64,000 nucleotides of DNA from Gammaproteobacteria bacterium (GTDB lineage: Bacteria > Pseudomonadota > Gammaproteobacteria > Steroidobacterales > Steroidobacteraceae). The DNA lies in assembly GCA_021323735.1 (NCBI GenBank), contig JAJPKM010000011.1, forward strand, positions 1-64,000, in the 5' to 3' direction. The notes beneath the pieces are model-generated. The model was not told where the DNA came from. It did no database searches and saw only the letters and a list, made by a program, of their open reading frames with translations. Both the position numbers and the translations under genes were made by a program. Shown piece after piece: positions 39,515 to 64,000 of the stretch. The stretch's first letter is position 1, and the number at the start of each line of letters is the position of its first letter.

Positions 39515-39846
39515 GTGTCCTCGCTCAAACCAGCCGTTAAGCCCGTGACCAAGTCCAAGGCCTTAGCAACCGCCGAAAACATCACCCGAGCCATCCTCAT
39601 CCTGCGCGGCCAGCGGGTACTTCTCGACAGCGAACTCGCCGGGCTCTACGGCGTCGAGACGCGTGCGCTTAACCAGGCTGTCAGACGCAACGCCGAACGC
39701 TTTCCCGAGGACTTCCGGTTTCAGCTCACCGCCAAAGAGGCAGCCGCTTCAAGATCACAATCTGTGACCTTGAAGCCAGGTCGTGGACAGAACATCAAAT
39801 TTCTACCCTACGCGTTCACCGAACACGGTGCCATCATGGTCGCCAT
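39515..39846 (+). pseudogene. ORF6N-domain protein, cut by an IS21 remnant
   Basis: From GTG 39515 about 110 residues match the ORF6N (KilA-N-like) DNA-binding domain: ILRGQRVLLDSELAGLYGVE and TRALNQAVRRNAERFPEDFR, then FTEHGAIMVAM. After this point the frame continues with residues that are the reverse complement of the transposase IstA, so the original 3' part has been lost. ORF6N genes are common in prophages and islands and are often solitary. The exact junction, near 39846, is estimated from where family similarity stops. GGAG lies 10 bases before the GTG. Confidence 0.75.
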
Positions 39847-41137
39847 GGACCTCCACCGCCTGGGCGGTGAGCCGGACATCGACGCGCTCCCCGATCAATC
39901 GATAGGGAACCGAGTAATACGCTCGGGCGACCTCGATGTGATAGTCGGGATGTACCTTGGCCTTGCGCCACTCGCCGAACTCGTAGGCTCGGGGCGGCAA
40001 GGGCTTGAGGGTCGCCCGCTCGAACTGCTCGAAGCGCGAGCGGCGGTTGCCCTCGATCTTTTTGAACGCCCGGGTGTTGAGCCGCTCGACCAGAGAAGCA
40101 ACCGTGCCGTTCAGCTCACCGATCGAGAAGAACGTCTGGTTGCGAAGGCGCGCCAAAATCCAGCGCTCCACGACCAGCACGCCGGTCTCGACCTTGGCCT
40201 TGTCGCGGGGCTTACGCACGCGCGCCGGCAGCACCGCGAGCTGATAGTACTCGGCAAAATCCTGATACGCCCGATTGATGTCCGGATCGTAGCGGTGGGC
40301 CTTGGTGACGCCGCTCTTGAGGTTGTCCGGGACGATCGCCCGCGGTGCGCCGCCGAAGTAGTTGAGCGCGCGCACGTGCGCGCCGAGCCAATCACCGGCC
40401 CCTTGGCTTAAAGAAGCCTCGGCGTAGGTGTAGTTGGAAAATCCCAGCACCGCGACGAAGATCTGCGCCGCGCGGGTGGATCCTGTGTGCCGGTCCTGGA
40501 TCGGAACCGTATGACCGGCATAATCCACGAACAACTTGTCGCCGGGCGTGTGTTCCTGGCGCAGCACGAGCTCTTGGGTCGCGAGCCAGCGGCGGTACTG
40601 ATCGCAGAACACGCTGTACTGCCAGCCATCGGGATGAGTGCTCTTGTACTCCTCCCACAGCAACAATCGCGTGACGCTGCGGCGGCGAAGCTCGGCGTGC
40701 AGGTAAGCAAAATCCGGACGTGGCGTGCGCGACAATGGCACCACCCGCCGATACATCTTGGCATGCAGCGCTGCCTCGTCCATCGTCGGCGGCAGCGGCC
40801 AAGTGACACCGGCATCGCGCGCTCGGCGCACGCACTCCTGCACGGTCGAACGCGCGCTGCCAATCGCAGCGGCTATCTGTCGGTCGCTGAAGCCTTCGGC
40901 CTTGAGCCGCAGGACCTCCCGAATCTTGCGCACGGGTAACCTCTCTTGCCCCACCGTAGCTCCCCTTCCCATCGGAAAAAGAAACCACGGTAGCGGCGGT
41001 TAACCCGCGCCACACCCCCTGCCGGCATCGACCGGAACGGTGGCCCGGCATGGACCGGAATGCTGGCCCGGCATGGACCGGAATGCTGGCCCGACATGCT
41101 CCGGAACTGGTGGCCGGCTTCGACCGGAATACGCACA
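39846..41137 (-). mobile_element. IS21-family element, truncated (istA without istB)
   Basis: The intact end is at 41137, where the minus strand begins TGTGCGTATTCCGG, a typical IS21-type terminus. It is followed by five tandem 23-bp repeats (41024-41138) and then istA. The distal part, with the end of istA, all of istB and the other terminus, is missing and joined to ORF6N coding sequence near 39846. The element is therefore immobile on its own. The repeats are the probable IstA binding sites. Confidence 0.8.
39847..40972 (-). pseudogene. istA: IS21-family transposase IstA, 3'-truncated
   Basis: About 370 genuine residues of a roughly 500-residue IstA remain. An N-terminal HTH (VRKIREVLRLKAEGFSDRQI, then AAAIGSARSTVQECVRRARD) is followed by the DDE integrase core: DKLFVDYAGHTVPIQD (first Asp), RAIVPDNLKSGV (second Asp) and DKAKVETGV (Glu). 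The protein then reads into foreign sequence after RLTAQAVEVH. Translation may begin at the first ATG (40972) or at the GTG 13 codons later (40933), which fits many IstA starts. The catalytic triad is present, but the C-terminal region and the IstB ATPase are absent, so activity is unlikely. Confidence 0.85.
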
Positions 41138-43158: not shown

Positions 43159-44735
43159 ATGTTGGAGAGCCCTGAGGTTGGCGCCGATACCGCAGTCACT
43201 GCGGACGATCGCGCCGCGCTGCTCGTAGAGAACTCAGAGCTTCGCGCTCGGGTTGAGGCAGGAAAACATCGCATCCATTTGCTCGAAGAAGCCCTGAGGG
43301 TCCTAAAGGCGAGCACCTATGGGCCGAGCCGGGAGCGCTTGAGCGTCGCCGCCGGTCAGGTCGAACTGTTCAACGAGATCGAAGCCACCCTCGACATTAC
43401 CGATACGGTGGGCATCGAGCCCGAGCTCAAAGCCACACCGCTGCGCGAGGAGAAGCTGAGTGCGGCCAAGCCCGGACGAGCCAAGCTTGCCTCGCATCTG
43501 CCGCGCGTCGAGGTGCGTCACGAACTGACCTTGGCCGAGCGCCAGTGCGCCTGCGGCGGGACCCTCGAGGAGATCGGCGCCGACTTGAGCGAGCAAATCG
43601 ACTATGTGCCTGCCAAGGTGCAGGTGCTGCGCCACGTGCGCGTGAAGTATGCCTGCCCCGGCTGCGAGCAGTGCGTGAAGACGGCAGCGCTACCCGAGCA
43701 TATCCTGCCGAAGACCAATGCCTCGCCGGGACTGCTTGCACACCTTGTGACCAGCAAATACGTGGACTCCCTGCCGTTGTATCGGCTAGAGGGCCAGTTC
43801 GAGCGCCACAACGTGCGGTTGCCGCGGGCAACTCAAGCGGCCTGGATGATCAGCCTCACATCGCCTCTGCAGCCGCTCTATAACCTAATGGATGAACGCG
43901 TACGCGCCTCTGGCTATGTGCGCATCGATGAGACCCGGATACAGGTTTTAAACAGCGAGAAGGCGCCAAGTGCCCTGCACTGGATGTGGGTGCGGGTCGC
44001 CGGCCCCAAACACCAACGAATCATCCTCTTCGACTATGACCCGAGTCGCGGCGGCGAGGTCGCCGATGGTCTCATCGAGGGCTGTAGCGGCTATCTGCAA
44101 AGCGATGGGTATCAGGCCTACGAGGGCGTGAGCCAGCGTGCGGGTCTAGTTCACGTTGGATGCTTCGCGCATGCGCGAAGACGCTTCTTCGAAGCCCTCA
44201 AAGCCTTGCCCAACGCACAGCGCAAACTCGCCAGCACCGCCCAGGAAGCGGTGCGCCGTATCGATGCGTTATACCTGATCGAGCGAGAGATTAAAGATCT
44301 CGACGATGAGGAACGCACGCGCATCCGAACCGAGCAAGCCGTGCCGAAGCTGGCATCATTGCATGCTTGGGCATCGCAGATGCAACATGAGACCATGCCC
44401 TCAGGCAAACTCGGCGAGGCGCTCGCATACTTGATCACGCAATGGCCGAAGCTGCGAAGCTGGTGCGTTACGTCGAAGATCCACGCATCGCCATCGATAC
44501 CAATCTTGCCGAGAACGCGATCAGGCCCTTCGCACTTGGACGGCGCAACTGGCTGTTCAGCGATACCGTGAGAGGTGCAAAGGCGAGCGCCATGCTCTAC
44601 AGCATCGTCTCCACCGCACGCGCTAACGGGCTTGAACCATACGCCTATCTACGGCGGCTATTTGATCAATTACCGAAGGCGAAAACCGTTGAGGACTTCG
44701 AGGCGCTCTTGCCGTTCAATGCCTCGCTCAACTAG
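43159..44735 (+). pseudogene. tnpC: IS66 transposase TnpC, frameshifted by an 8-bp duplication
   Basis: The first frame (43159 to about 44447) encodes the leucine-rich N-terminus, the zinc-like region CACGGTLEEIGADLSEQIDY, LVTSKYVDSLPLYRLEGQFE, and the DDE core with RIDETRIQVL and LQSDGYQAYEGV. The C-terminal part ([20 protein letters not shown], with the catalytic Glu in AENAIRP, then [20 protein letters not shown]) lies in another frame. The break coincides with gaagctgc followed by gaagctgg at 44448-44463, an 8-bp tandem duplication; deleting one copy restores the frame. As read, the protein stops early after foreign residues and lacks the catalytic Glu, so this IS66 copy should be transposition-defective unless complemented. 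Confidence 0.88.
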
Positions 44736-45511: not shown

Positions 45512-52783
<7,272 letters not shown>

Positions 52784-54795: not shown

Positions 54796-55890
54796 GTGGC
54801 CTGTAACATTCATTTATAGACTATACTGGCGTCTATGACAGACGCTATCAATTTGACGAATGCGGAGCGTATGGAACTGACACGGCGAGCGAACAGCCGA
54901 ACGGATCGGGCCGAGGATGCCCGACGAGCGCGGCTGATCTTGCTGCTGGCGGAAGGCCATACGTGGGATGAAGTGTCCGAACGGATCGAGTGCAGTCGCG
55001 GCTTTGTCGCGAGCTGGAACAAGCGATTCGTCGAACAGCGGATCGCGGGGCTCTACAGTCGACATCTGGGCCAAGTGGCCTCGGTGCTCACGCCGGAGCT
55101 CGAAGCGCGGATCCTGGAGGCGACGCGCCGTGCGCCCGGCGATGGCTCGACGCACTGGAGCACTCGCAAACTCGGCGCTCACCTGGACGTCAGCCACATG
55201 ATGGTGGCCCGAGTCTGGCGCAAGCACGGCCTGAAGCCGCACCGGATCGAGCGCTACATGGCCTCGAACGATCCGGACTTTGAGACCAAGGCGGCCGACA
55301 TCATCGGGCTGTATCTGAATCCGCCGGCGCACGCCGCGGTGTTCTGCGTCGATGAGAAGACGGCCATTCAAGCTCTGGATCGCAAAGATCCGGTGCTGCC
55401 GCTCTCTCCGGGGCGCGCAGAACGGCACGGATTTGAGTACTACCGGCATGGCACCTTGTCCCTGTACGCCGCCTTCAATACGCAAACTGGCGAGGTTCTG
55501 GGCAAGACCGCCGAGCGGCACACCTCCGCGGAGTTCGTCGCTTTTCTCACCGACATCGTGATCAATCAGCCGCGCGGCAAGGAGATCCACGTGATCGCCG
55601 ACAATCTCTCGGCGCACAAGAGCGCGCCGGTCAAAGACTTCCTCGAAGCGCACCCGAAGGTTCATCTGCACTTCACCCCGACATACTCCTCATGGCTCAA
55701 CCAGGTCGAGCTGTGGTTCGGCAAGATCGAGCGCGACGTCATCGCTCGCGGGGTGTTCACTTCAGTCTCGGATTTGAAGAGAAAGCTCATGCGTTACATC
55801 CGCCAGTACAACAAAGCACCACGTACCGTGAAGTGGAAATATGCAGATCCATCGCGTCACATCAGTACAAAATCAGTTGTTACAGGCCAC
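54796..55890 (+). mobile_element. IS630-family element at a TA target
   Basis: The termini share the sequence gtggcctgtaaca (inverted at 55878-55890). TA lies on both sides, at 54794-54795 and 55891-55892, as expected of IS630/Tc1-type target duplication. The 1095-bp element carries one full transposase gene. The stop codon of that gene is TAG at 55891-55893, made from the duplicated TA and the next host base. Confidence 0.9.
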
Positions 55891-55893
55891 TAG
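54835..55893 (+). CDS. IS630-family transposase
   Basis: The 352-residue protein has an N-terminal HTH part (DARRARLILLLAEGHTWDEV, then SERIECSRGFVASWNKRFVE) and a DDE catalytic core: AVFCVDEKTAIQALD (first Asp), IHVIADNLSAHKSAPV (second Asp) and SSWLNQVELWFGKIERDV (Glu). Length and the V-D-E-K-T and D-N-x-x-x-H-K motifs fit IS630 members. It appears intact. Its stop lies at the element boundary, so the C-terminus depends on the insertion site beginning TAA or TAG. Confidence 0.93.
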   Translation: MTDAINLTNAERMELTRRANSRTDRAEDARRARLILLLAEGHTWDEVSERIECSRGFVASWNKRFVEQRIAGLYSRHLGQVASVLTPELEARILEATRRAPGDGSTHWSTRKLGAHLDVSHMMVARVWRKHGLKPHRIERYMASNDPDFETKAADIIGLYLNPPAHAAVFCVDEKTAIQALDRKDPVLPLSPGRAERHGFEYYRHGTLSLYAAFNTQTGEVLGKTAERHTSAEFVAFLTDIVINQPRGKEIHVIADNLSAHKSAPVKDFLEAHPKVHLHFTPTYSSWLNQVELWFGKIERDVIARGVFTSVSDLKRKLMRYIRQYNKAPRTVKWKYADPSRHISTKSVVTGH

Positions 55894-56343: not shown

Positions 56344-56436
56344 GGTGATTGCGATTATCGAGTTGTCCTCAAGCGAAATCAGAGATTCGAATCCAGGGGC
56401 CTGTAATAAATTTTGTGTGTGAGCCGGTTAATGAAC

Positions 56437-57295
56437 TTACTCGCTCAACACCAATCGATCGCCGAACTGGATGGCCAGCTGCGCCTTAGCAGCATGCCAT
56501 GAGATCGGTGGGTTCTTCCAGTTCTCGGTAATGTTGCGCAACGCCAGCCAGATGAGCTTCGCTGCAGCCTGATCACTCGGGAAATGCCCCTTGTTGCGCA
56601 CCGCCTTTCGCACCGAGGCGTTCAGACTCTCGATCGCGTTAGTGGTGTAGATGATCTTGCGAACTTCGGCGGGGAAGCTGAAGAACGGGATAACCGCTTC
56701 CCAGTTACGCCGCCAGCTTTGCGCGATGGCTGGATATTTACGGCCCCAGGGGCCCTGATCGAAGGCCTCGAGCTCTGCCGCGGCGGTCTCGGCGTTTGCC
56801 GCCCGATAAACCGTGCGCAGCTCGCCGGCGATCTGTTTGCGCTCCTTCCAGGATGCAAACTGCATCGAGTAGCGGATCAGATGCACGATACAGGTCTGCA
56901 CGACCGTGTCCGGGAAAACGGTGGTAATCGCCTCTGGGAAGCCTTTCAGCCCATCGACGACGGCGATCAGGATGTCCTGGGTGCCTCGGCCGCGGATCTC
57001 GTTCATGACACGCAGCCAGAACTTCGCTCCCTCGCTTTGCTCGATCCACATGCCGAGCACCTGCTTGTGACCGGAAGGGCGCATGCCGATCGCCAGATAC
57101 ACCGCCTTGTTCTTCACCAGTCCTTCGTCGCGAATCTTCACCCGTAGCGCATCGAAAAAGACGATGGCGTAGCTGGAATCCAATGGTCGAGCCTGCCAAG
57201 CCGTCACTTCGTCGATCACTGAATCGGTGACGGCCGATACCAGGTCCGGGGAAATATCGACCCCGTAGATCTCGCGCACATGAGCTTGGATATCC
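56437..57295 (-). pseudogene. IS256 transposase, C-terminal part
   Basis: This part reads GYPD-like DIQAHVREIYGVDISPDLVS, then AIVFFDALRVKIRDEGLVKN with the first catalytic Asp and DILIAVVDGLKGFPEAITTV with the second. The Glu is in IIYTTNAIESLNASVRKAVR, the IS256/MULE signature. The N-terminal part of the same gene is at 63254-63626. Removing the IS66 insert and one copy of ggatatcc joins the two pieces in frame (373 + 851 bases = 408 codons including stop), the normal IS256 length. All three catalytic residues are in this C-terminal piece, but it lacks the DNA-binding N-terminus. Confidence 0.93.
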
Positions 57296-57321
57296 GTAAG
57301 CGTCTGGCCAAGGCATCTTGA

Positions 57322-57524
57322 CTATTGGCTGATCAGCGACGACTGCCAGCGGTGTGGAAGCAGATCTTCAAGTCGGCTGGCAGGGTGGGTCGGCAGGCGC
57401 TCGAGGACGTCTTTGAGGTAGCGATACGGATCGTGTCCATTGAGCTTCGCGGACTGGATCAGGCTCATGATGGTGGCGGCACGCTGACCGGCGCGCAGTG
57501 ACCCAGCGAAGAGCCAGTTCGATC
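57322..57524 (-). pseudogene. tnpC: IS66 TnpC, C-terminal fragment
   Basis: The fragment encodes SNWLFAGSLRAGQRAATIMS, then LIQSAKLNGHDPYRYLKDVL and ends RLEDLLPHRWQSSLISQ. This is the conserved tail of IS66 transposases that follows the catalytic Glu helix. The main part of the gene is at 60990-62395. Joining the two at the shared GATC gives 535 codons including stop with no frame error, so the RIT element inserted cleanly between Arg and Ser-Asn-Trp codons. Confidence 0.93.
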
Positions 57525-57552
57525 TTTTATGCATGGCCGTTCATAAAAGATC
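57521..57552. repeat. Palindrome at the left RIT junction
   Basis: GATCTTTTATG (57521-57531) and CATAAAAGATC (57542-57552) form an 11-bp inverted repeat with a 10-base spacer. It begins at the GATC target copy and ends where the RIT terminal repeat starts, so it may be a recombinase binding or crossover site. Confidence 0.75.
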
Positions 57553-57678
57553 CTATGTGCGCCTGACAATTATGCATGGTCGCAGTCACGGTCACTCGGG
57601 TCGCGGAGGCTTTCGCCATAGAATTACAGTCTTTGGGCAGGCGCGCAAGCGAGGGGCCTGCGCACCGGCCGTGCATAA

Positions 57679-58683
57679 TCATAAGCTGTTCAGGAACTGT
57701 AGCGTGCGGTCCGTGGGTCGATACCGCAGTGGTCTAGTTGCAGGAGGCTTCAGTGCCGCCAATGCCCGAGCCTTCATAGCGAGGTCCGCTTCCACGTATT
57801 GATGCGTGGTGGCGGTGCTCTCATGACCCAGCCACAACGCGATCACCGTGATGTCCACGCCGGACTGTAATAGGTGCATCGCAATGGAGTGGCGCAAGAC
57901 ATGCGGAGAGACTCGTCGCTGCCCCAACTCGGGATGCCGTTGAGAAGCCGCTTTAACCGCCGAGGTCAAACGCTCTGCCACCGACGTGCGCGACAACGCG
58001 CCGTCGGTGCGGTTAGGGAAAAGTACCGCATGAGGATCCGGAGGGACCTCCCGCAGCCAGGATCGAAGGCGCGTGCGCGTCGTCGGCCAAAGTGGTACGG
58101 AGCGTTCCTTGCGGCCCTTCCCCATGATCTTGATCGAAGCAGTGGGGTCCAGGATGAGATCGGACCGGCGCAGTGCGATGAGCTCAGAGACCCGAGCACC
58201 GCTGTTGTACAAGACGGTCAGCATCATCCGGTCGCGACGGCCAACCCACGTGGCATCCGACGGTGCGGCCAGCGTAGTCTCCACCTGCTCCTTGGTCAGA
58301 TAACCTATGAGCGGCCGCTCGAAGCGCTTCATCGGGATGGCCAGCACGCGTTGGGTGATGCCAATCGCGGATGGCTCCTGGAATGACGCGAAATGCATAA
58401 ACGAGCGAATCGCCGCGAGTCGTGCATTACGACTGCGGATGGTGTTGTGCCGGTCGTCCTCGAGATGCTTCAGAAACACCAGTGTGAATGAAGCGTCAAT
58501 GTCGGCAAGCACGAGCTCAGCGGGCTTCTTGCGTAATCGCTCATGCGCAAACGTGAGGACCAGTCGGAACGTGTCTCTATAAGCGGCGACCGTGCGGGGG
58601 CTAGCGTGGACCTGGTTCATGAGTCGGTCGAGGAAGAACCGCTCGATGAGGCGGGAAAGTAGTAACGGATCGGTGGTGCTCAT
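57679..58683 (-). CDS. Third tyrosine recombinase of the RIT element
   Basis: The 334-residue integrase-family protein has a SAM-like core-binding N-terminus (FFLDRLMNQVHASPRTVAAY) and a catalytic domain with NSGARVSELIALRRSDL (Arg I), HVLRHSIAMHLLQSGVDI (His-x-x-Arg) and WLGHESTATTHQYVEADL (His and Tyr nucleophile). The start at 58681-58683 overlaps the stop of the middle recombinase (ATGA). It is the last gene of the trio. All catalytic residues are present, so it seems functional. Confidence 0.92.
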   Translation of the reverse strand: MSTTDPLLLSRLIERFFLDRLMNQVHASPRTVAAYRDTFRLVLTFAHERLRKKPAELVLADIDASFTLVFLKHLEDDRHNTIRSRNARLAAIRSFMHFASFQEPSAIGITQRVLAIPMKRFERPLIGYLTKEQVETTLAAPSDATWVGRRDRMMLTVLYNSGARVSELIALRRSDLILDPTASIKIMGKGRKERSVPLWPTTRTRLRSWLREVPPDPHAVLFPNRTDGALSRTSVAERLTSAVKAASQRHPELGQRRVSPHVLRHSIAMHLLQSGVDITVIALWLGHESTATTHQYVEADLAMKARALAALKPPATRPLRYRPTDRTLQFLNSL

Positions 58684-59630
58684 GGCTGTCTCCCGGCAGC
58701 CTGTTGTGCTCGACGCGCGGCCAAGGCGAGCAGCTCCGGCGTCGCCGTGATGTACCAGTAGGTGTCGGTAACCTTCGCGTGGCCGACATAGGTCGAAAGC
58801 GCCAGCATGTGGCGGTCTATCTGGCGGCCCTCGCGGTACCACTGCTCGAGACGGCGGCACAGGAAAGTATGTCGAAGGTCATGCAACCGCAGACCGGGAT
58901 GTCCGCCGCGAGGTGGCCCGAGGTGGTGACGCAGCAGCTTGAAAGCATAACGCACGTTCCCGCTACAGGCAGATCGCCCACGATCAAAGGTAAAGAAGGA
59001 GCTTTGCGCGGCCGCCTGAGGGTCCGCGTCCCGGATCACTGAGTACCTCGTCAGCGCGACGACCACCGACGGGTGCAATGGAACCCAACGCGACTTGCCG
59101 AACTTGCTCCGGCGGATAAATAGCAGCCCTTGTGACAAGTCCACATCGTCCCGTTCAAGCCGAGTCCCCTCACTTATGCGAAGACCGCAGGCCGCGATCA
59201 GTCCGAAGATGGTCGCGCAAGTAGCGCCCCGCAAGCCGCCGAGCTTGCGCGCCAAAAGCATCAGGCGAGCGACCTCTGCATCGGTGTAAATATGCGGCCG
59301 CAGTCGTCGATGTGATCGCCCGAAAAGCCGCCGTGGTGGGACCACCGTGGCTGAGTCATACCGCAGACAGAACTTGGCAAAGCCACGAAGCACCTCAATG
59401 CGCCGTGCCGCCGTTAACGGGCGGCGGCCTTCGGAAGACAGTGCCCACTCCGATGCAAGCGCCAGCGTAATCGGCCCGGAATGCCCCCGACCGTCTGCGT
59501 AGCGAGCAAAGGCTGCAAGCTGGCTGCCGGAGATGGACATCCCAAAGCCGTTGCGACGGCGTTCTGCCAGATATGCCGCAACGCGATCGGCCATCCTCGC
59601 CGGCGCGATCACGGCCGACTCCCTGGCCAC
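58680..59630 (-). CDS. Second tyrosine recombinase of the RIT element
   Basis: The 316-residue recombinase shows AACGLRISEGTRLERDDVDL (Arg I), LRLHDLRHTFLCRRLEQWY (His-x-x-Arg) and YVGHAKVTDTYWYITATPEL (His and Tyr). The long insert between His-x-x-Arg and the Tyr (EGRQIDRHMLALSTYVGH) is typical of the middle RIT protein. Its start overlaps the upstream recombinase by 22 bases and its stop overlaps the next start by 4, so the three are made as a coupled set. Catalytic residues are complete. Confidence 0.92.
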   Translation of the reverse strand: MARESAVIAPARMADRVAAYLAERRRNGFGMSISGSQLAAFARYADGRGHSGPITLALASEWALSSEGRRPLTAARRIEVLRGFAKFCLRYDSATVVPPRRLFGRSHRRLRPHIYTDAEVARLMLLARKLGGLRGATCATIFGLIAACGLRISEGTRLERDDVDLSQGLLFIRRSKFGKSRWVPLHPSVVVALTRYSVIRDADPQAAAQSSFFTFDRGRSACSGNVRYAFKLLRHHLGPPRGGHPGLRLHDLRHTFLCRRLEQWYREGRQIDRHMLALSTYVGHAKVTDTYWYITATPELLALAARRAQQAAGRQP

Positions 59631-60838
59631 GGACGCGCCACGGCAGCGAGTGCCGGTAAATCCACCTTGGCGTAAATGGTCGTTGTATCGACACAGCGAT
59701 GCCTAAGAAGATCAGCGATCTGCTTCAATGGCACGCCACGCTGAACGAGCCTGGTCGCGAGGGTGTGGCGCAGTACATGGGGACCTGACACGCGAGCGGT
59801 TAGGCCTGAGCGTTCCGCGGCGTCGCGCACCACTTGGCGCACGACTGCCGGCGTGGTCGCAATATCGTACGGCGGCCTGTGTCGAACGAATACCTCGCGG
59901 CGGCAGGTCTGCGGGCGCCCCTGGCGAAGGTACGCGACGATCGCTTCCGCAACAGCGCGTGGCAGAGGCATGACATCAACGCGGCGGGCCTTGCCGTGAA
60001 TCCTGACGGTGCCCTCAATCCAGTCGACTTTATCCAGCGTCATCCGTGCAACCTCGGCGCCACGCAACCCAAGGTCGACGAGACAGCGCAGAATCGCATA
60101 GTCACGACATCCCGTACGCTTGGAACGATCACAGGACTCAAGTAGCTGGGCAATCTCTTGCGGCGTCAGAGCCCGCGGTACACTCGAGAGTCGCCACCTG
60201 ACGCTCCGCGGCAACGCCGCAACAAGCGTTGTGCACGCAACGCCGCTCACCGCCTTGAAACGAAAGTAGCTTCGAACAGACGCTGCTGCGCTCTGGACCG
60301 ATCCGGGCTTCCAGCCCGCTGTGTAACGTGCAAAGAAGCTGGAAACTTCGGCCGCACTCACTTCGGTCAGCGATCGACCGCCGCGCAGCGTACATCCTGC
60401 GAGAAACGCGCGGGCGTCGCGGCGCCGGACAATGCGCGTGGCGGGTTGCAACCCACGCGCCTCGACCAAATAGTCATCGAAAGCCGCGATCTCGGCCTCA
60501 ATCGTGGCGTCACCAGCTATCGCTCGAACAGGGATCACACCCTCTGTCCGGAGCATCTTGAGCCATCCCATCAGCGCCGCGTGCTCCTCGTACGGGGGCC
60601 TGCGAGGCCTCGCAACACGGCGTCTCCTCCGATCCCTATCATCATCGATGAAGGCTGATATGAGCGCCTCGTCAGGACCCCGCCCGCGATGGCGGGTTCG
60701 CGCCCGCCATCCAAAGAAATCCTTGAGACACTGCCTGTAGAGATCCACGGTCCGTGAGGCGTATCGGCGGCTCTGAAGGTAAGCGGTGTACTCGGTGACC
60801 GCCAGGTCCCCGGATCGATCAGCAGAAATGCCATGCAT
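59609..60838 (-). CDS. First tyrosine recombinase of the RIT element
   Basis: The 409-residue protein is the longest of the trio. It has an extra N-terminal domain (TEYTAYLQSRRYASRTVDLY, then a basic DRDRRRRRVARPRRPPYEEH stretch), a core-binding domain (FDDYLVEARGLQPATRIVRR) and the catalytic domain: DLGLRGAEVARMTLDKVDW (Arg I), HVLRHTLATRLVQRGVPL (His-x-x-Arg) and LLRHRCVDTTTIYAKVDL (His and Tyr). I start at ATG 60836-60838. A gene order of long, short and medium recombinases with overlapping ends is the RIT hallmark. Confidence 0.92.
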   Translation of the reverse strand: MHGISADRSGDLAVTEYTAYLQSRRYASRTVDLYRQCLKDFFGWRARTRHRGRGPDEALISAFIDDDRDRRRRRVARPRRPPYEEHAALMGWLKMLRTEGVIPVRAIAGDATIEAEIAAFDDYLVEARGLQPATRIVRRRDARAFLAGCTLRGGRSLTEVSAAEVSSFFARYTAGWKPGSVQSAAASVRSYFRFKAVSGVACTTLVAALPRSVRWRLSSVPRALTPQEIAQLLESCDRSKRTGCRDYAILRCLVDLGLRGAEVARMTLDKVDWIEGTVRIHGKARRVDVMPLPRAVAEAIVAYLRQGRPQTCRREVFVRHRPPYDIATTPAVVRQVVRDAAERSGLTARVSGPHVLRHTLATRLVQRGVPLKQIADLLRHRCVDTTTIYAKVDLPALAAVARPWPGSRP

Positions 60839-60989
60839 GGTGAAACCCTCCGTAGCGATATGACGCGCGGAGGACACCATCATCAGTTATGCTCGGCAAG
60901 GCTCTGTTGGAAACAGGAAATGCAGGGAAAAGACAGCCCAAATGCGTTGCACCATCATGGCACCGTGCATAATCACTGGGCGCACATAG

Positions 60990-62395
60990 GATCTTCCCAA
61001 AGCGACTGGCCGGATCCGGTTTTCGATATGGTTGTTGTCGATGGGCAGTTCGCCATCATCGAGGTAACGGATCAAGGCAGCCCAACGTCCCAGGCTGTAC
61101 TCAATGGCTTTTCTTGTCGCAGATCCATCCGGGACCAGGCCTCGCTGGCGGGTGAACCACTGCCTCAAGGCTTCGGCCACCGGTTTTGATCTTTGCTGCC
61201 GCAGCTGTTGCCGGCCATCGGCGTCCAGTTTCAGTTCGCGCGCTTCTCGTTCGATTTCGTACAGCGCGGTGAAGTATCTCAAGCCCTCTTCGGCGATCTC
61301 GCTGCGATGATTGGCGTAAAGATCATGGAGTTTCCTGCGGGCGTGAGCCATGCAACCGATCTCGATTACCCCGCGATCGAACAGCGCTTTGTATCCGGAG
61401 TAGTCGTCGCAGACGAGCTTCCCGGACCAACTCCCCAGGAACTCGCGGGCATGCACACCCGCACGGCTGTCGGCAAAGTTGTAGACAACGGCCTGCAACT
61501 CGTCGTATTCGCTCGTGCTGTAGCTCCACAGGTATGCCCGGTGTGTTTTGCCAAGCCCTGGCTTTAACATCGGCACCGGCGTCTCATCCGCATGCAGCAC
61601 CGCTCGAGTCAGCAGCATCGCTCGCATCGCCGCGATGAGCGGCTCAAGCTTCACGCCGCAGGCGCCCACCCACTGCGCGAGCGTTGAGCGCGGCAGCGCA
61701 AGGCCGGCACGTGCAAAGATGCTTTCCTGCCGGTACAGCGGTGCGTGATCCAAGTATTTTGCGATCAGCACCTGCGCCAGCAGGCCCGCCGTCGGGATCC
61801 CCTTGTCGATGACGTGAGCCGGCACCGGCGCCTGGATCAACCGCTCGCAGGCACGACAGGCCCATTTACCGCGGATGTGTCGCTCGACCTCGAACACGCC
61901 GGGGGTATAGTCGAGCTTCTCGCTCACATCCTCGCCGATGCGCTCCAGCGTGCAGCCGCAGCCACATTGGGTTTGCTCCGGCTCGTGGCGGACCTCCCGG
62001 CGCGGGAACGAAGCCGGCAGAGCCACGCGCCGCGGCTTTTCCTTAGGAGGCGCGGCAGGCTTTTCCCTAAGTGCCTCGATCTCGAGGCTGATCGCCTCGA
62101 TATCCGCATCGATACTCTCGTCCAGAAGCGAGCGCTGCACGACATCGAGTTGCTCGCTGCGTCGGTCATAGCGCCAGCGCTTTAACGTCGCCATCTCGTG
62201 CGTGAGTTGGTCGATCTTCAGTTGCTTGAGTTTGATCTCTGCGTCGCGCTTGGCGAGGACCGCCGCGTGAGCGTTGCGTTCGGCATCGAGATCGGCGAGC
62301 TGTGCGTCGCGATCGGCAAGTTCTTCGAGAAGCGTCGCTGTCAGATTTCGCAGCTGTTCTGCGTTCATTTTATCGAGCGGGCGCGACAACTCCAT
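60990..62395 (-). pseudogene. tnpC: IS66 TnpC, N-terminal and catalytic part
   Basis: About 468 residues of TnpC remain. A coiled-coil N-terminus (ADRDAQLADLDAERNAHAAV) precedes the zinc-binding block CGCGCTLERIGEDVSEKLDY and CRACERLIQAPVPAHVIDKG. The DDE core has AVLHADETPVPMLKPGLGK, LVCDDYSGYKALFDRGVIEI and the Glu in DNNHIENRIRPVALGR. After GR the frame enters the RIT element and adds about 30 foreign residues before a stop. The lost tail is at 57322-57524. All catalytic residues are in this piece, so a C-terminally altered protein could still be made, though activity is doubtful. Confidence 0.92.
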
Positions 62396-62451
62396 GCACT
62401 CGATGCTGCCATAATTGCAGCGATTTCAACATGCTTTTTGCGCTTTTTTTC

Positions 62452-62787
62452 TCACAAAATCCGGATCTTCGCGCGCTCATCGAGCCGCTCCCACGGCAGC
62501 CCCACGACGATCGCCTGAAGTTGCTCGTGGGAGAGTGGCATGCCACGATCATGGCGTACACCAGCGCGGATGAAGCTGCCTTCGTAGAGCTTTCGCGCAC
62601 ATAGCCAGAGGCCAAAGCCGTCGTGCACCAACACCTTCATACGATTGGCGCGTTTGTTCACGAACAGGTACGCATGATGAGCCCGCGCTTCACCGAACAC
62701 CGTCACGACGCGCGCCAGCGCCTTATCAACGCCGGCGCGCATATCGAGCGGTTCCACCGCGAACCAGGCCGCATCCACCCGGATCAC
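62452..62787 (-). CDS. tnpB: IS66 accessory protein TnpB
   Basis: This 111-residue IS66 Orf2-family protein starts at GTG 62785-62787, overlapping the tnpA stop (GTGA). It shows FAVEPLDMRAGVDKALARVV, then HHAYLFVNKRANRMKVLVHD and GFGLWLCARKLYEGSF. These are the family blocks D-M-R-x-G and F-x-N-[KR]-R-x-x-x-[MI]-K-[VI]-L. It appears intact. Confidence 0.92.
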   Translation of the reverse strand: MIRVDAAWFAVEPLDMRAGVDKALARVVTVFGEARAHHAYLFVNKRANRMKVLVHDGFGLWLCARKLYEGSFIRAGVRHDRGMPLSHEQLQAIVVGLPWERLDERAKIRIL

Positions 62788-63173
62788 TTCACGAGCTCGC
62801 GTAGCAGCAGCGCGCACTCATGCGCTGCCGATGTCGGCCACTCAATGCCGACACTTCGCCCGTTGCGGCGTATCTCAATGCGGATCGCGCTCGCTGCAGG
62901 ACTCGGCGGCATTGACACGGGCATAAAACCTTCCGTTCCGGGCATCAACTCGCTCGGCTCGGTCGGCCGTATCGTGATCGGCCTGCCGCTGCGTTCCGCC
63001 TTCCTTACCCAGTCGCGCAACATGTTCGCGTTCAGGCCACGCGCCAGGGCGACCGCCGCGATCGATACACCGGATTGCTGGCACGCCCCAACGGCTTCTG
63101 CCTTGAACTGCGCGCTGTGGCGCCGACGACGGCGTCTACCCGTCCCTACGACCGTTCCTTCCGAAGTGGACAT
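62784..63173 (-). CDS. tnpA: IS66 accessory protein TnpA (HTH)
   Basis: The 129-residue protein has an Arg-rich start (GRRRRRRHSAQFKAEAVGAC) and the transposase-type HTH QQSGVSIAAVALARGLNANM followed by LRDWVRKAE. The C-terminal half is a beta-rich tail (IRIEIRRNGRSVGIEWPTSA). This is the IS66 OrfA/IS3-like HTH type and differs from the TnpA of the IS66 copy at 42-44 kb, so the two IS66 elements belong to different subgroups. It appears intact. Confidence 0.9.
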   Translation of the reverse strand: MSTSEGTVVGTGRRRRRRHSAQFKAEAVGACQQSGVSIAAVALARGLNANMLRDWVRKAERSGRPITIRPTEPSELMPGTEGFMPVSMPPSPAASAIRIEIRRNGRSVGIEWPTSAAHECALLLRELVK

Positions 63174-63253
63174 ATGTACACCTAACGTTAGAGTGAAGGC
63201 TCATCCTTGCACTCGCGCGGGTACGCTTATAGATGACTTCGGCGGACGCTTAC

Positions 63254-63626
63254 GGATATCCCGGGTACTCATGCCGCGGGCGTACAGCGCAATGATCTTG
63301 TCGTCAAAGCCTGGAAAGCGGCGCCGGTACTTGCCGATCAGCGCCGGATCGAAGCGGCCGTGCCGATCGCGGGGAATCGACAGCTCCATCGAGCCCTCTG
63401 GCGTCAGCACTGTCTTTGCACTGTGGCCGTTGCGATGGTTGGCAACGCCAGCCTCCGCCTCGTTGTCCAAGTGGACATCCATCTCAGCGTTGAGCATCCG
63501 CTCGGCCAGCGCCTTCTTCAGCTCACCCATCAATCCGCCGGAATCTAGTACCGTCTTTGGATCACGACCCGCTAGCAGTTGATCCAAAAGCTCCTTGGGA
63601 AATGCCTGTGTATCGTTCTTCGCCAT
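63254..63626 (-). pseudogene. IS256 transposase, N-terminal part
   Basis: The piece encodes MAKNDTQAFPKELLDQLLAG, ALAERMLNAEMDVHLDNEAE, NHRNGHSAKTVLTPEGSMEL and ALIGKYRRRFPGFDDKIIAL, ending GMSTRDI at the insertion. This is the standard IS256 N-terminus (E-x-x-[ML]-x-x-H-L and N-x-R-N-G). It is joined in frame to the part at 56437-57295 when the IS66 insert and one target copy are removed. In the present DNA it reads about 18 foreign residues into IS66 sequence before a stop. Confidence 0.92.
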
Positions 63627-63686
63627 ACCCGCTCCTTGCCCTCTCGGACAGTGTATGGCTCATCACACAAAAAATCAGACAGTCCC

Positions 63687-64000
63687 GAATCCAGCAACCG
63701 CTTATGCCTCGTTTGTTTCGTCAATTCACGATGGCACCAATGATGTTACGCGGTAGAATTGTCCGATGCTGCGAATCCAAAGGGCAATCGGTCCATTACT
63801 GCCTCCGATAGTGGCTATTGGCTTTCTCGATCACTGAAAATCGCGCGCTAATACCGCTCAAATAGCATCCGCAGGTTCTTTTTTTGAAACACCTTCGGAC
63901 TGCAATTTGCCCGCGAGTTACTTCATGGCTGACATCACTCAACTCTGAACAGTGAAGTACGCCAGCGTTTCCGATACCGATTGATCACGGCAATCGCCAT
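63687..64000. other. Window end, no gene recognised
   Basis: The first 8 bases are the IS256 target copy (gaatccag). The remaining 306 bases have mixed composition and short frames only. I see no coding signal, RNA gene or repeat. It should be the continuation of the sequence interrupted at 56396. Confidence 0.5.

Follow-up and report, generated by a model that had tools for sequence, protein, structure and literature searches.

In this study, we analysed the window, a stretch of 64,000 nucleotides from contig JAJPKM010000011.1 of a gammaproteobacterium of the family Steroidobacteraceae (assembly GCA_021323735.1), in which three mobile elements lie one inside another. The innermost is a RIT, an element with three tyrosine recombinase genes, and from a comparison of its junctions with those of related RITs we consider it likely (probability about 0.8) that it inserted site-specifically into the transposase gene tnpC of an IS66-family element, itself located within an IS256-family element. 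The original prediction had proposed the three-level nest from the DNA letters, and the nest was confirmed here by its repeats, by Pfam domains and by insert-free relatives that align across each junction. The nest itself looks ordinary, while its inner level appears directed; the points of interest, both based on sequence comparison, are a targeting rule and a 6-20-6 junction, in which two 6-mers enclose a 20-bp core.

The comparison rests on a hand-gathered set of RITs. RitB matches were found in 35 of 217 genomes of the family at 1e-10 and in 8 of 369 genomes of the class at 1e-20, the window's own genome included in both counts. In a plasmid collection, 393 records matched RitB at 1e-15 and 606 matched RitC at 1e-20, a phage collection gave one match, and a search for related loci among genome contigs gave one distant relative, neither of which was used. 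Flanking DNA was retrieved for a subset of the matches, comprising 20, 20 and 15 stretches and 29 plasmid regions (five of the set of 15 re-fetch plasmid records already present). Together, 229 sequences (228 loci, many of them overlapping, and the window) yielded 120 trios, of which 70 distinct RIT trios remained after copies sharing both RIT and flanks were dropped. As many draft contigs end just past the RIT, some targets may have been missed. All tnpC coordinates below are residues of IS883, a 517-aa reference TnpC.

A TnpC match is present within the 1.5-kb flank of 27 of the 70 trios, and by count IS66 tnpC is interrupted in 25 (L200, whose match is 384 nt off, and L204_4098, next to the RIT that counts as L142, were dropped). 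Eighteen of these 25, the window included, share a single site at R450, within the motif LGR-KN. Four others lie near residue 474 (L134, L137, L214 and L216), and three sites were met at one locus each: near 438-442 in pHG1, at 274 in L222 and near 201-230 in L136. At the LGR site, the match on at least one side ends at 450-452 in 17 loci, and L173 was entered by eye since its alignment ran beyond the junction. Both tnpC halves are present in the window, L203 (pSHV1, = L143), L146, L148, L226, L124 and L208 (by eye on the C side for L124 and L208 and on the N side for L146), only the N half in L227, L217, L162 (= L174) and L173, and only the C half in L147, L225, L228, L218, L224, L221 and L142. 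The register of the 6-mer at the break is constant, comprising the last base of codon 449, codon 450 and two bases of codon 451, and is identical at all 11 N-side and all 14 C-side loci as read by eye. The named hosts of LGR-site RITs are alpha-, beta- and gammaproteobacteria, and identity to the window's proteins is 44-61% for RitB where listed and 51-54% for RitC at the listed plasmid loci.

The junctions add a second regularity. The earlier reading had the RIT flanked by GATC, and this motif does occur on both sides (57521-57524 and 60990-60993); a third GATC, however, lies at 57549-57552, and the repeat is really the 6-bp GATCTT. Nor is the RIT bounded simply by GATC, as a 20-bp palindromic core (TTATG-N10-CATAA) lies between the left terminal repeat and the IS66 target. 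In the orientation from ritA to ritC, the core reads TTATGAACGGCCATGCATAA; junction A, on the N side of tnpC, is TTGGG-AAGATC-CTATG, junction B, where RIT and core meet, is CATAG-GATCTT-TTATG, and junction C, on the C side of tnpC, is CATAA-AAGATC-GAACTGG. Because of these three sequences, we take the repeat to be 6 bp rather than 4 and the insertion to be asymmetric. By comparison, the fixed layout is tnpC-N, A, the RIT body in either direction, B, the 20-bp core, C and tnpC-C. The core is present in 14 of the 18 LGR loci (13 by script, L221 by eye), in every case adjoining the C-terminal part of tnpC whichever direction the RIT body faces. It was found at none of the 11 N-side junctions read, where tnpC runs straight into the terminal repeat.

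The same layout makes it very improbable that the 28 bp beside the left repeat of the window are unrelated debris, e.g., a small palindrome inserted before the RIT: the stretch is indeed just 28 bp long, a core with two partly shared spacers, but it recurs at 14 of 18 loci and each time on the tnpC C side. Another possibility is chance nesting, in which IS-rich DNA gathers insertions and the RIT struck IS66 since IS66 was there. The region does contain further transposase genes, of IS21 type (39803-40972), of another IS66 (43159-44571) and of DDE_3 type (54835-55893), and for IS66 in IS256 chance is the plain reading. For the RIT level it is contradicted by the 18 RITs that break the same codon with the core side fixed, and as an account of the nest it is improbable. 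Judged from these sequence comparisons, the RIT level of nesting is not random.

We give equally little credence to shared descent, by which one ancient RIT-in-IS66 composite would have spread and the common site would be inherited, not targeted. It would fit the observation that all labelled LGR cases fall in a single RitC branch, but three sets of loci speak against it. The RITs of pSHV1 and pMSHV (L146) are 100% identical over 3,467 bp and lie at the LGR site of divergent IS66 copies, which have no long DNA match outside the RIT and end sequences and whose downstream protein shares ~43% identity over 53 residues; junction A differs (CCGAAA and GCGGAA), while B and C are identical. Three identical trios in G462 (3,120 bp aligned, 100%) have different recombinase genes at their A sides and differ at A (TGCCGC, TGCCGG and TGACGC), with B and C constant; two of these loci, L176 and L179, are not fully independent, since they have an upstream flank in common (99.5% over 1,200 bp). 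Moreover, the RIT body is found facing both ways. In Croceicoccus L147 and L148, the same body stands in both directions beside the same core and tnpC C-part, reversed relative to the tnpC N half in L148, and their core is inverted with respect to that of Sphingobium. L147 and L148 have the RIT and some flanking sequence in common, and a single insertion may account for both.

For site-specific insertion into tnpC, we propose that RitA, RitB and RitC would exchange strands over the 6-bp spacer between YTATG/CATAR-like arms. The coreless side A would retain the target's own 6 bp, and B and C would bring the 6 bp of the element together with the core. Recombination of A with B would flip the RIT body and that of B with C the core, whereas recombination of A with C would excise the whole insertion, leaving the site empty.

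Several observations weigh against this interpretation. The mobility of the RIT has comparative support, and movement was not observed here. The 6-mers A, B and C frequently differ by 1-3 bases among loci, and in the window all three are identical, so that donor and target bases are indistinguishable there. Both tnpC halves stand at the site in only seven of the 18 LGR loci, and the four loci with only the N half lack both the C-part and the core. Individual loci are irregular as well: L147 has tnpC C-parts on both sides; the upstream tnpC match of L228 stops at residue 370, where it abuts a shortened ritA; and the tnpC of L146 can be recognised over 1-142 and again in the final codons ahead of the RIT but not over ~143-435, which leaves ~16 codons, read by eye, to support its N side. 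The plasmid loci were hand-picked, L227 with its IS66 label known, pHG1 from the literature and L146-L148 by similarity to L143. In the RitC tree, 14 rows of the branch that holds the LGR cases were not seen in IS66. Finally, the LGR site is not exceptionally conserved, its 26-nt window ranking 153 of 469 in 19 intact tnpC copies. The idea that a RIT chooses the most conserved DNA of tnpC is likewise unsupported at the two other sites ranked (273 for pHG1 and 47 for residue 474).

In the RitC tree (67 rows), the target labels cluster by branch. All 16 labelled LGR rows belong to one branch of 33 (SH-aLRT 98), in which 19 rows are in IS66 by count (the 16, L173, L222 and L136), and all nine YR_LRH and four IS66_474 rows belong to another branch of 23 (95). 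The labels require 16 changes, compared with a mean of 26.2 after shuffling, and none of 200 shuffles gave a value as low; near-copies aid this clustering. L208 was left out of the tree, L173 was labelled as other and L135 was mislabelled YR_LRH.

Targets other than tnpC were also found. Tyrosine recombinase genes are broken at positions 133-141 of the Phage_integrase profile (HxLRH) in L176, L178, L179, L133, L185 and one of the two L206 trios, with a recombinase C-part on both sides in L185; L141_6434 and the second L206 trio were assigned to this site by eye. In L135, a recombinase is broken later, the Phage_integrase match reaching profile position 164. RITs with both sides of the target shown interrupt an ISAzo13 transposase at profile 95-96 (L175) and an ArdC metallopeptidase at its HELGH motif, profile 52-55 (L215). 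Adjacency alone was seen for a group II intron maturase (L187 and L207), an IstB-type gene (L211) and the C-domain of a Mu-type transposase, IS21-like by eye (L182); no Pfam hits were found beside the RITs of L196 and L180.

From the recurrent LGR site and these other lineage-specific sites, RITs look like site-specific integrators of mobile-element genes. A wider reading is tentative and, in our judgement, somewhat likelier to fail than to hold: RITs might form a class of hyperparasites, each lineage of which would target one precise nucleotide in a mobile-element gene (for a transposase, a recombinase or the like), insert by 6-bp spacer exchange with a 20-bp core (on the side set by the target, with a body that can flip) and then ride the disabled host element as it is moved in trans. 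Given the recurrent single-nucleotide target in tnpC and the fixed junction layout, both RIT mobility and RIT targeting could be tested directly on a small plasmid target, and RIT ends could be located correctly.

Some further observations concern these RIT branches and sites. The branch that targets HxLRH (L176, L178, L179 and L206) attacks enzymes of its own superfamily. L126, L130 and L098, from one sub-branch, have the 6-mers CGGCCA or CGACCC and lie in seemingly non-coding DNA. L216 (Sinorhizobium meliloti psymA), whose RIT is at residue 474, also has an LGR site with a tnpC C-part and a core-like remnant, ~0.85 kb upstream of ritA; this is perhaps the scar of an earlier RIT. A Rhizobium sp. 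CB3171 plasmid (L222:1900-6400) carries a RIT with an IS66 tnpC N-part on either side. The two N-parts belong to different genes, and each breaks off at the WTYV motif (residue 274), an arrangement suggestive of recombination between two occupied sites.

The element in the window is a new member of the RITs. Its three adjacent recombinase genes face the same direction and overlap briefly (GTGA and ATGA), a motif scan found the residues R, HxxR, H and Y in each recombinase, and the terminal inverted repeats are ~34 bp with an element length near 3.5 kb. The 34-nt arms are 82% complementary with the spacers included, and 24 of 34 positions are identical without them. The overlapping starts of ritB and ritC were chosen; the longest open reading frame of ritB is 58680-59630, and that of ritC extends to 58860. 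Similar RITs (ritABC) of ~3.5 kb were described from Cupriavidus metallidurans CH34 and C. necator pHG1, likewise with three tyrosine recombinase genes that overlap, and with an inverted repeat and an overlapping palindrome. For rit1 of CH34, inactivation of a transposase gene of the IS66 family is stated (PMC2864759, PMC3414803). Unlike the RIT in the window, that of pHG1 breaks tnpC ~12 codons upstream, in NNxxEN by eye, with the match ending at residue 442. In the accessible passages of those two papers, both are single cases, described without a target rule or a 6-20-6 junction, and RIT mobility is called not yet demonstrated (PMC3414803). According to the passages available of another paper, RIT target specificity has not been formally tested by experiments (PMC10214605). 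No general target rule for RITs was found in the accessible parts of PMC3414803, PMC2864759, PMC10214605, PMC5385486, PMC8138268 and PMC10322971; Van Houdt 2009 and Ricker 2013 were not covered.

The 6-bp logic of RIT junctions looks similar to that of the strand-biased circularizing integrative elements (SEs), where the 6 bp of the target and the carried 6 bp stand on opposite sides (PMC10214605). This spacer logic is seen in related RITs, whereas in the window all copies are identical. SEs differ from RITs in using IntA, Tfp, IntB and Srap, and the accessible text mentions no 20-bp core (PMC10214605). The three recombinase genes alone fill the RIT body, and no intA-tfp-intB-srap set was found, although no search for SE proteins was made. 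Another system likewise has three recombinase-type genes (PMC10214605, PMC5385486), together with a fourth essential gene, ginD (PMC10214605), as far as the parts of these sources at hand tell.

The two outer levels belong to the IS66 and IS256 families (Table 1). IS66 has tnpA, tnpB, tnpC, matching ends that start GTAAGCGT (20 of 30 identical) and an 8-bp duplication; IS256 has a Mutator-type transposase, inverted ends (19 of 34 identical, ungapped) and an 8-bp duplication. Both flank repeats of the original prediction are perfect. Its in-silico excisions also hold. Without the RIT, tnpC is open over 1605 nt (534 aa and a stop, 535 codons) and its product aligns across the junction with that of L034 at 80.3% identity over residues 1-534 with one gap opening; without IS66, the IS256 transposase gene is open over 1224 nt (407 aa and a stop, 408 codons) and its product aligns with that of L064 at 84.5% identity over 407/407 aa, gapless. 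The junctions are clean, in register with insert-free relatives of IS66 (L034, 75%; L036, 69%) and of IS256 (L064, 80%; L065, 79%), both sides of which align and join at a single copy of the duplicated bases. The possibility that IS256 sits inside a tRNA gene, raised by the resemblance of GATTCGAATCC to a T-arm, was rejected, as the joined empty site contains no tRNA.

Table 1. Features of the nest, in window positions.
Feature	Position	Strand	Basis
IS256-family element, outer level	56397..63686	-	Pfam Transposase_mut in both halves; relatives L064, L065
IS256 target duplication GAATCCAG, left copy	56389..56396	.	sequence
IS256 target duplication GAATCCAG, right copy	63687..63694	.	sequence
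IS256 transposase, N-terminal part	63262..63626	-	Pfam Transposase_mut; frame check
IS256 transposase, C-terminal part incl. one duplication copy	56437..57295	-	Pfam Transposase_mut; frame check
IS66-family element, middle level	57296..63253	-	tnpA, tnpB, tnpC by Pfam
IS66 target duplication GGATATCC, left copy	57288..57295	.	sequence
IS66 target duplication GGATATCC, right copy	63254..63261	.	sequence
IS66 tnpA	62784..63173	-	Pfam HTH_Tnp_1
IS66 tnpB	62452..62817	-	Pfam TnpB_IS66
IS66 tnpC, N-terminal part ending at LGR	60994..62395	-	Pfam DDE_Tnp_IS66; L034/L036 alignment
IS66 tnpC, C-terminal part, starts (R)SNWLFAGS	57322..57524	-	Pfam DDE_Tnp_IS66_C
Junction A, 6-bp GATCTT, tnpC N-terminal side	60990..60995	.	
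RIT body between terminal inverted repeats starting CTATGTGCGCC	57553..60989	-	arm comparison; 3,437 bp
ritA, 424 aa	59609..60883	-	Pfam Phage_integrase; R, HVLRH, H, Y motif
ritB	58680..59612	-	Pfam Phage_integrase; catalytic motif; GTGA start overlaps ritA stop
ritC	57679..58683	-	Pfam Phage_integrase; catalytic motif; ATGA start overlaps ritB stop
Junction B, 6-bp AAGATC (inverted copy), between core and RIT	57547..57552	.	
20-bp palindromic core TTATG-N10-CATAA	57527..57546	.	same layout at 13 other IS66 loci
Junction C, 6-bp GATCTT (AAGATC on minus strand), tnpC C-terminal side	57521..57526	.	

The proposed order of insertion, IS256, then IS66, then RIT, stands in its first step, as IS256 was present before IS66; the second step is not forced, since the RIT could already have been inside the IS66 when the latter transposed, with the transposase provided in trans. 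Although its own tnpC is lost, IS66 retains its ends, and it could therefore still be mobilised in trans and carry the RIT as passenger. The suggestion that the nest is recent and could help date element activity in the lineage found no support. Each of its elements is present in one copy in its own draft genome (4.19 Mb, 58 contigs), and the nearest IS66 and IS256 matches among the 217 family genomes have 75-81% DNA identity. Dating from the clean junctions was rejected, as the searched genomes contained no near-identical copies and showed no empty site; none could be examined, because the other 22 genomes of the genus gave no match to either IS256 flank. As the RIT sits at a recurrent, specific target, its level says little on chance or timing. 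More generally, the data suggest that part of mobile-element nesting is aimed, which would make such nests poor clocks.

The neighbourhood of the nest contains further genes. A second, different IS66 tnpC (a 470-aa open reading frame at 43159-44571) lies ~12 kb from the nest and is a possible source of transposase in trans. On the right of the nest, at ~13 kb and beyond the window, lies a bacterial Ku gene of the end-joining type (L093:16703-17572). The gene at 45512-52783, near several transposase genes, encodes a protein of 2,423 aa with an RHS core domain.

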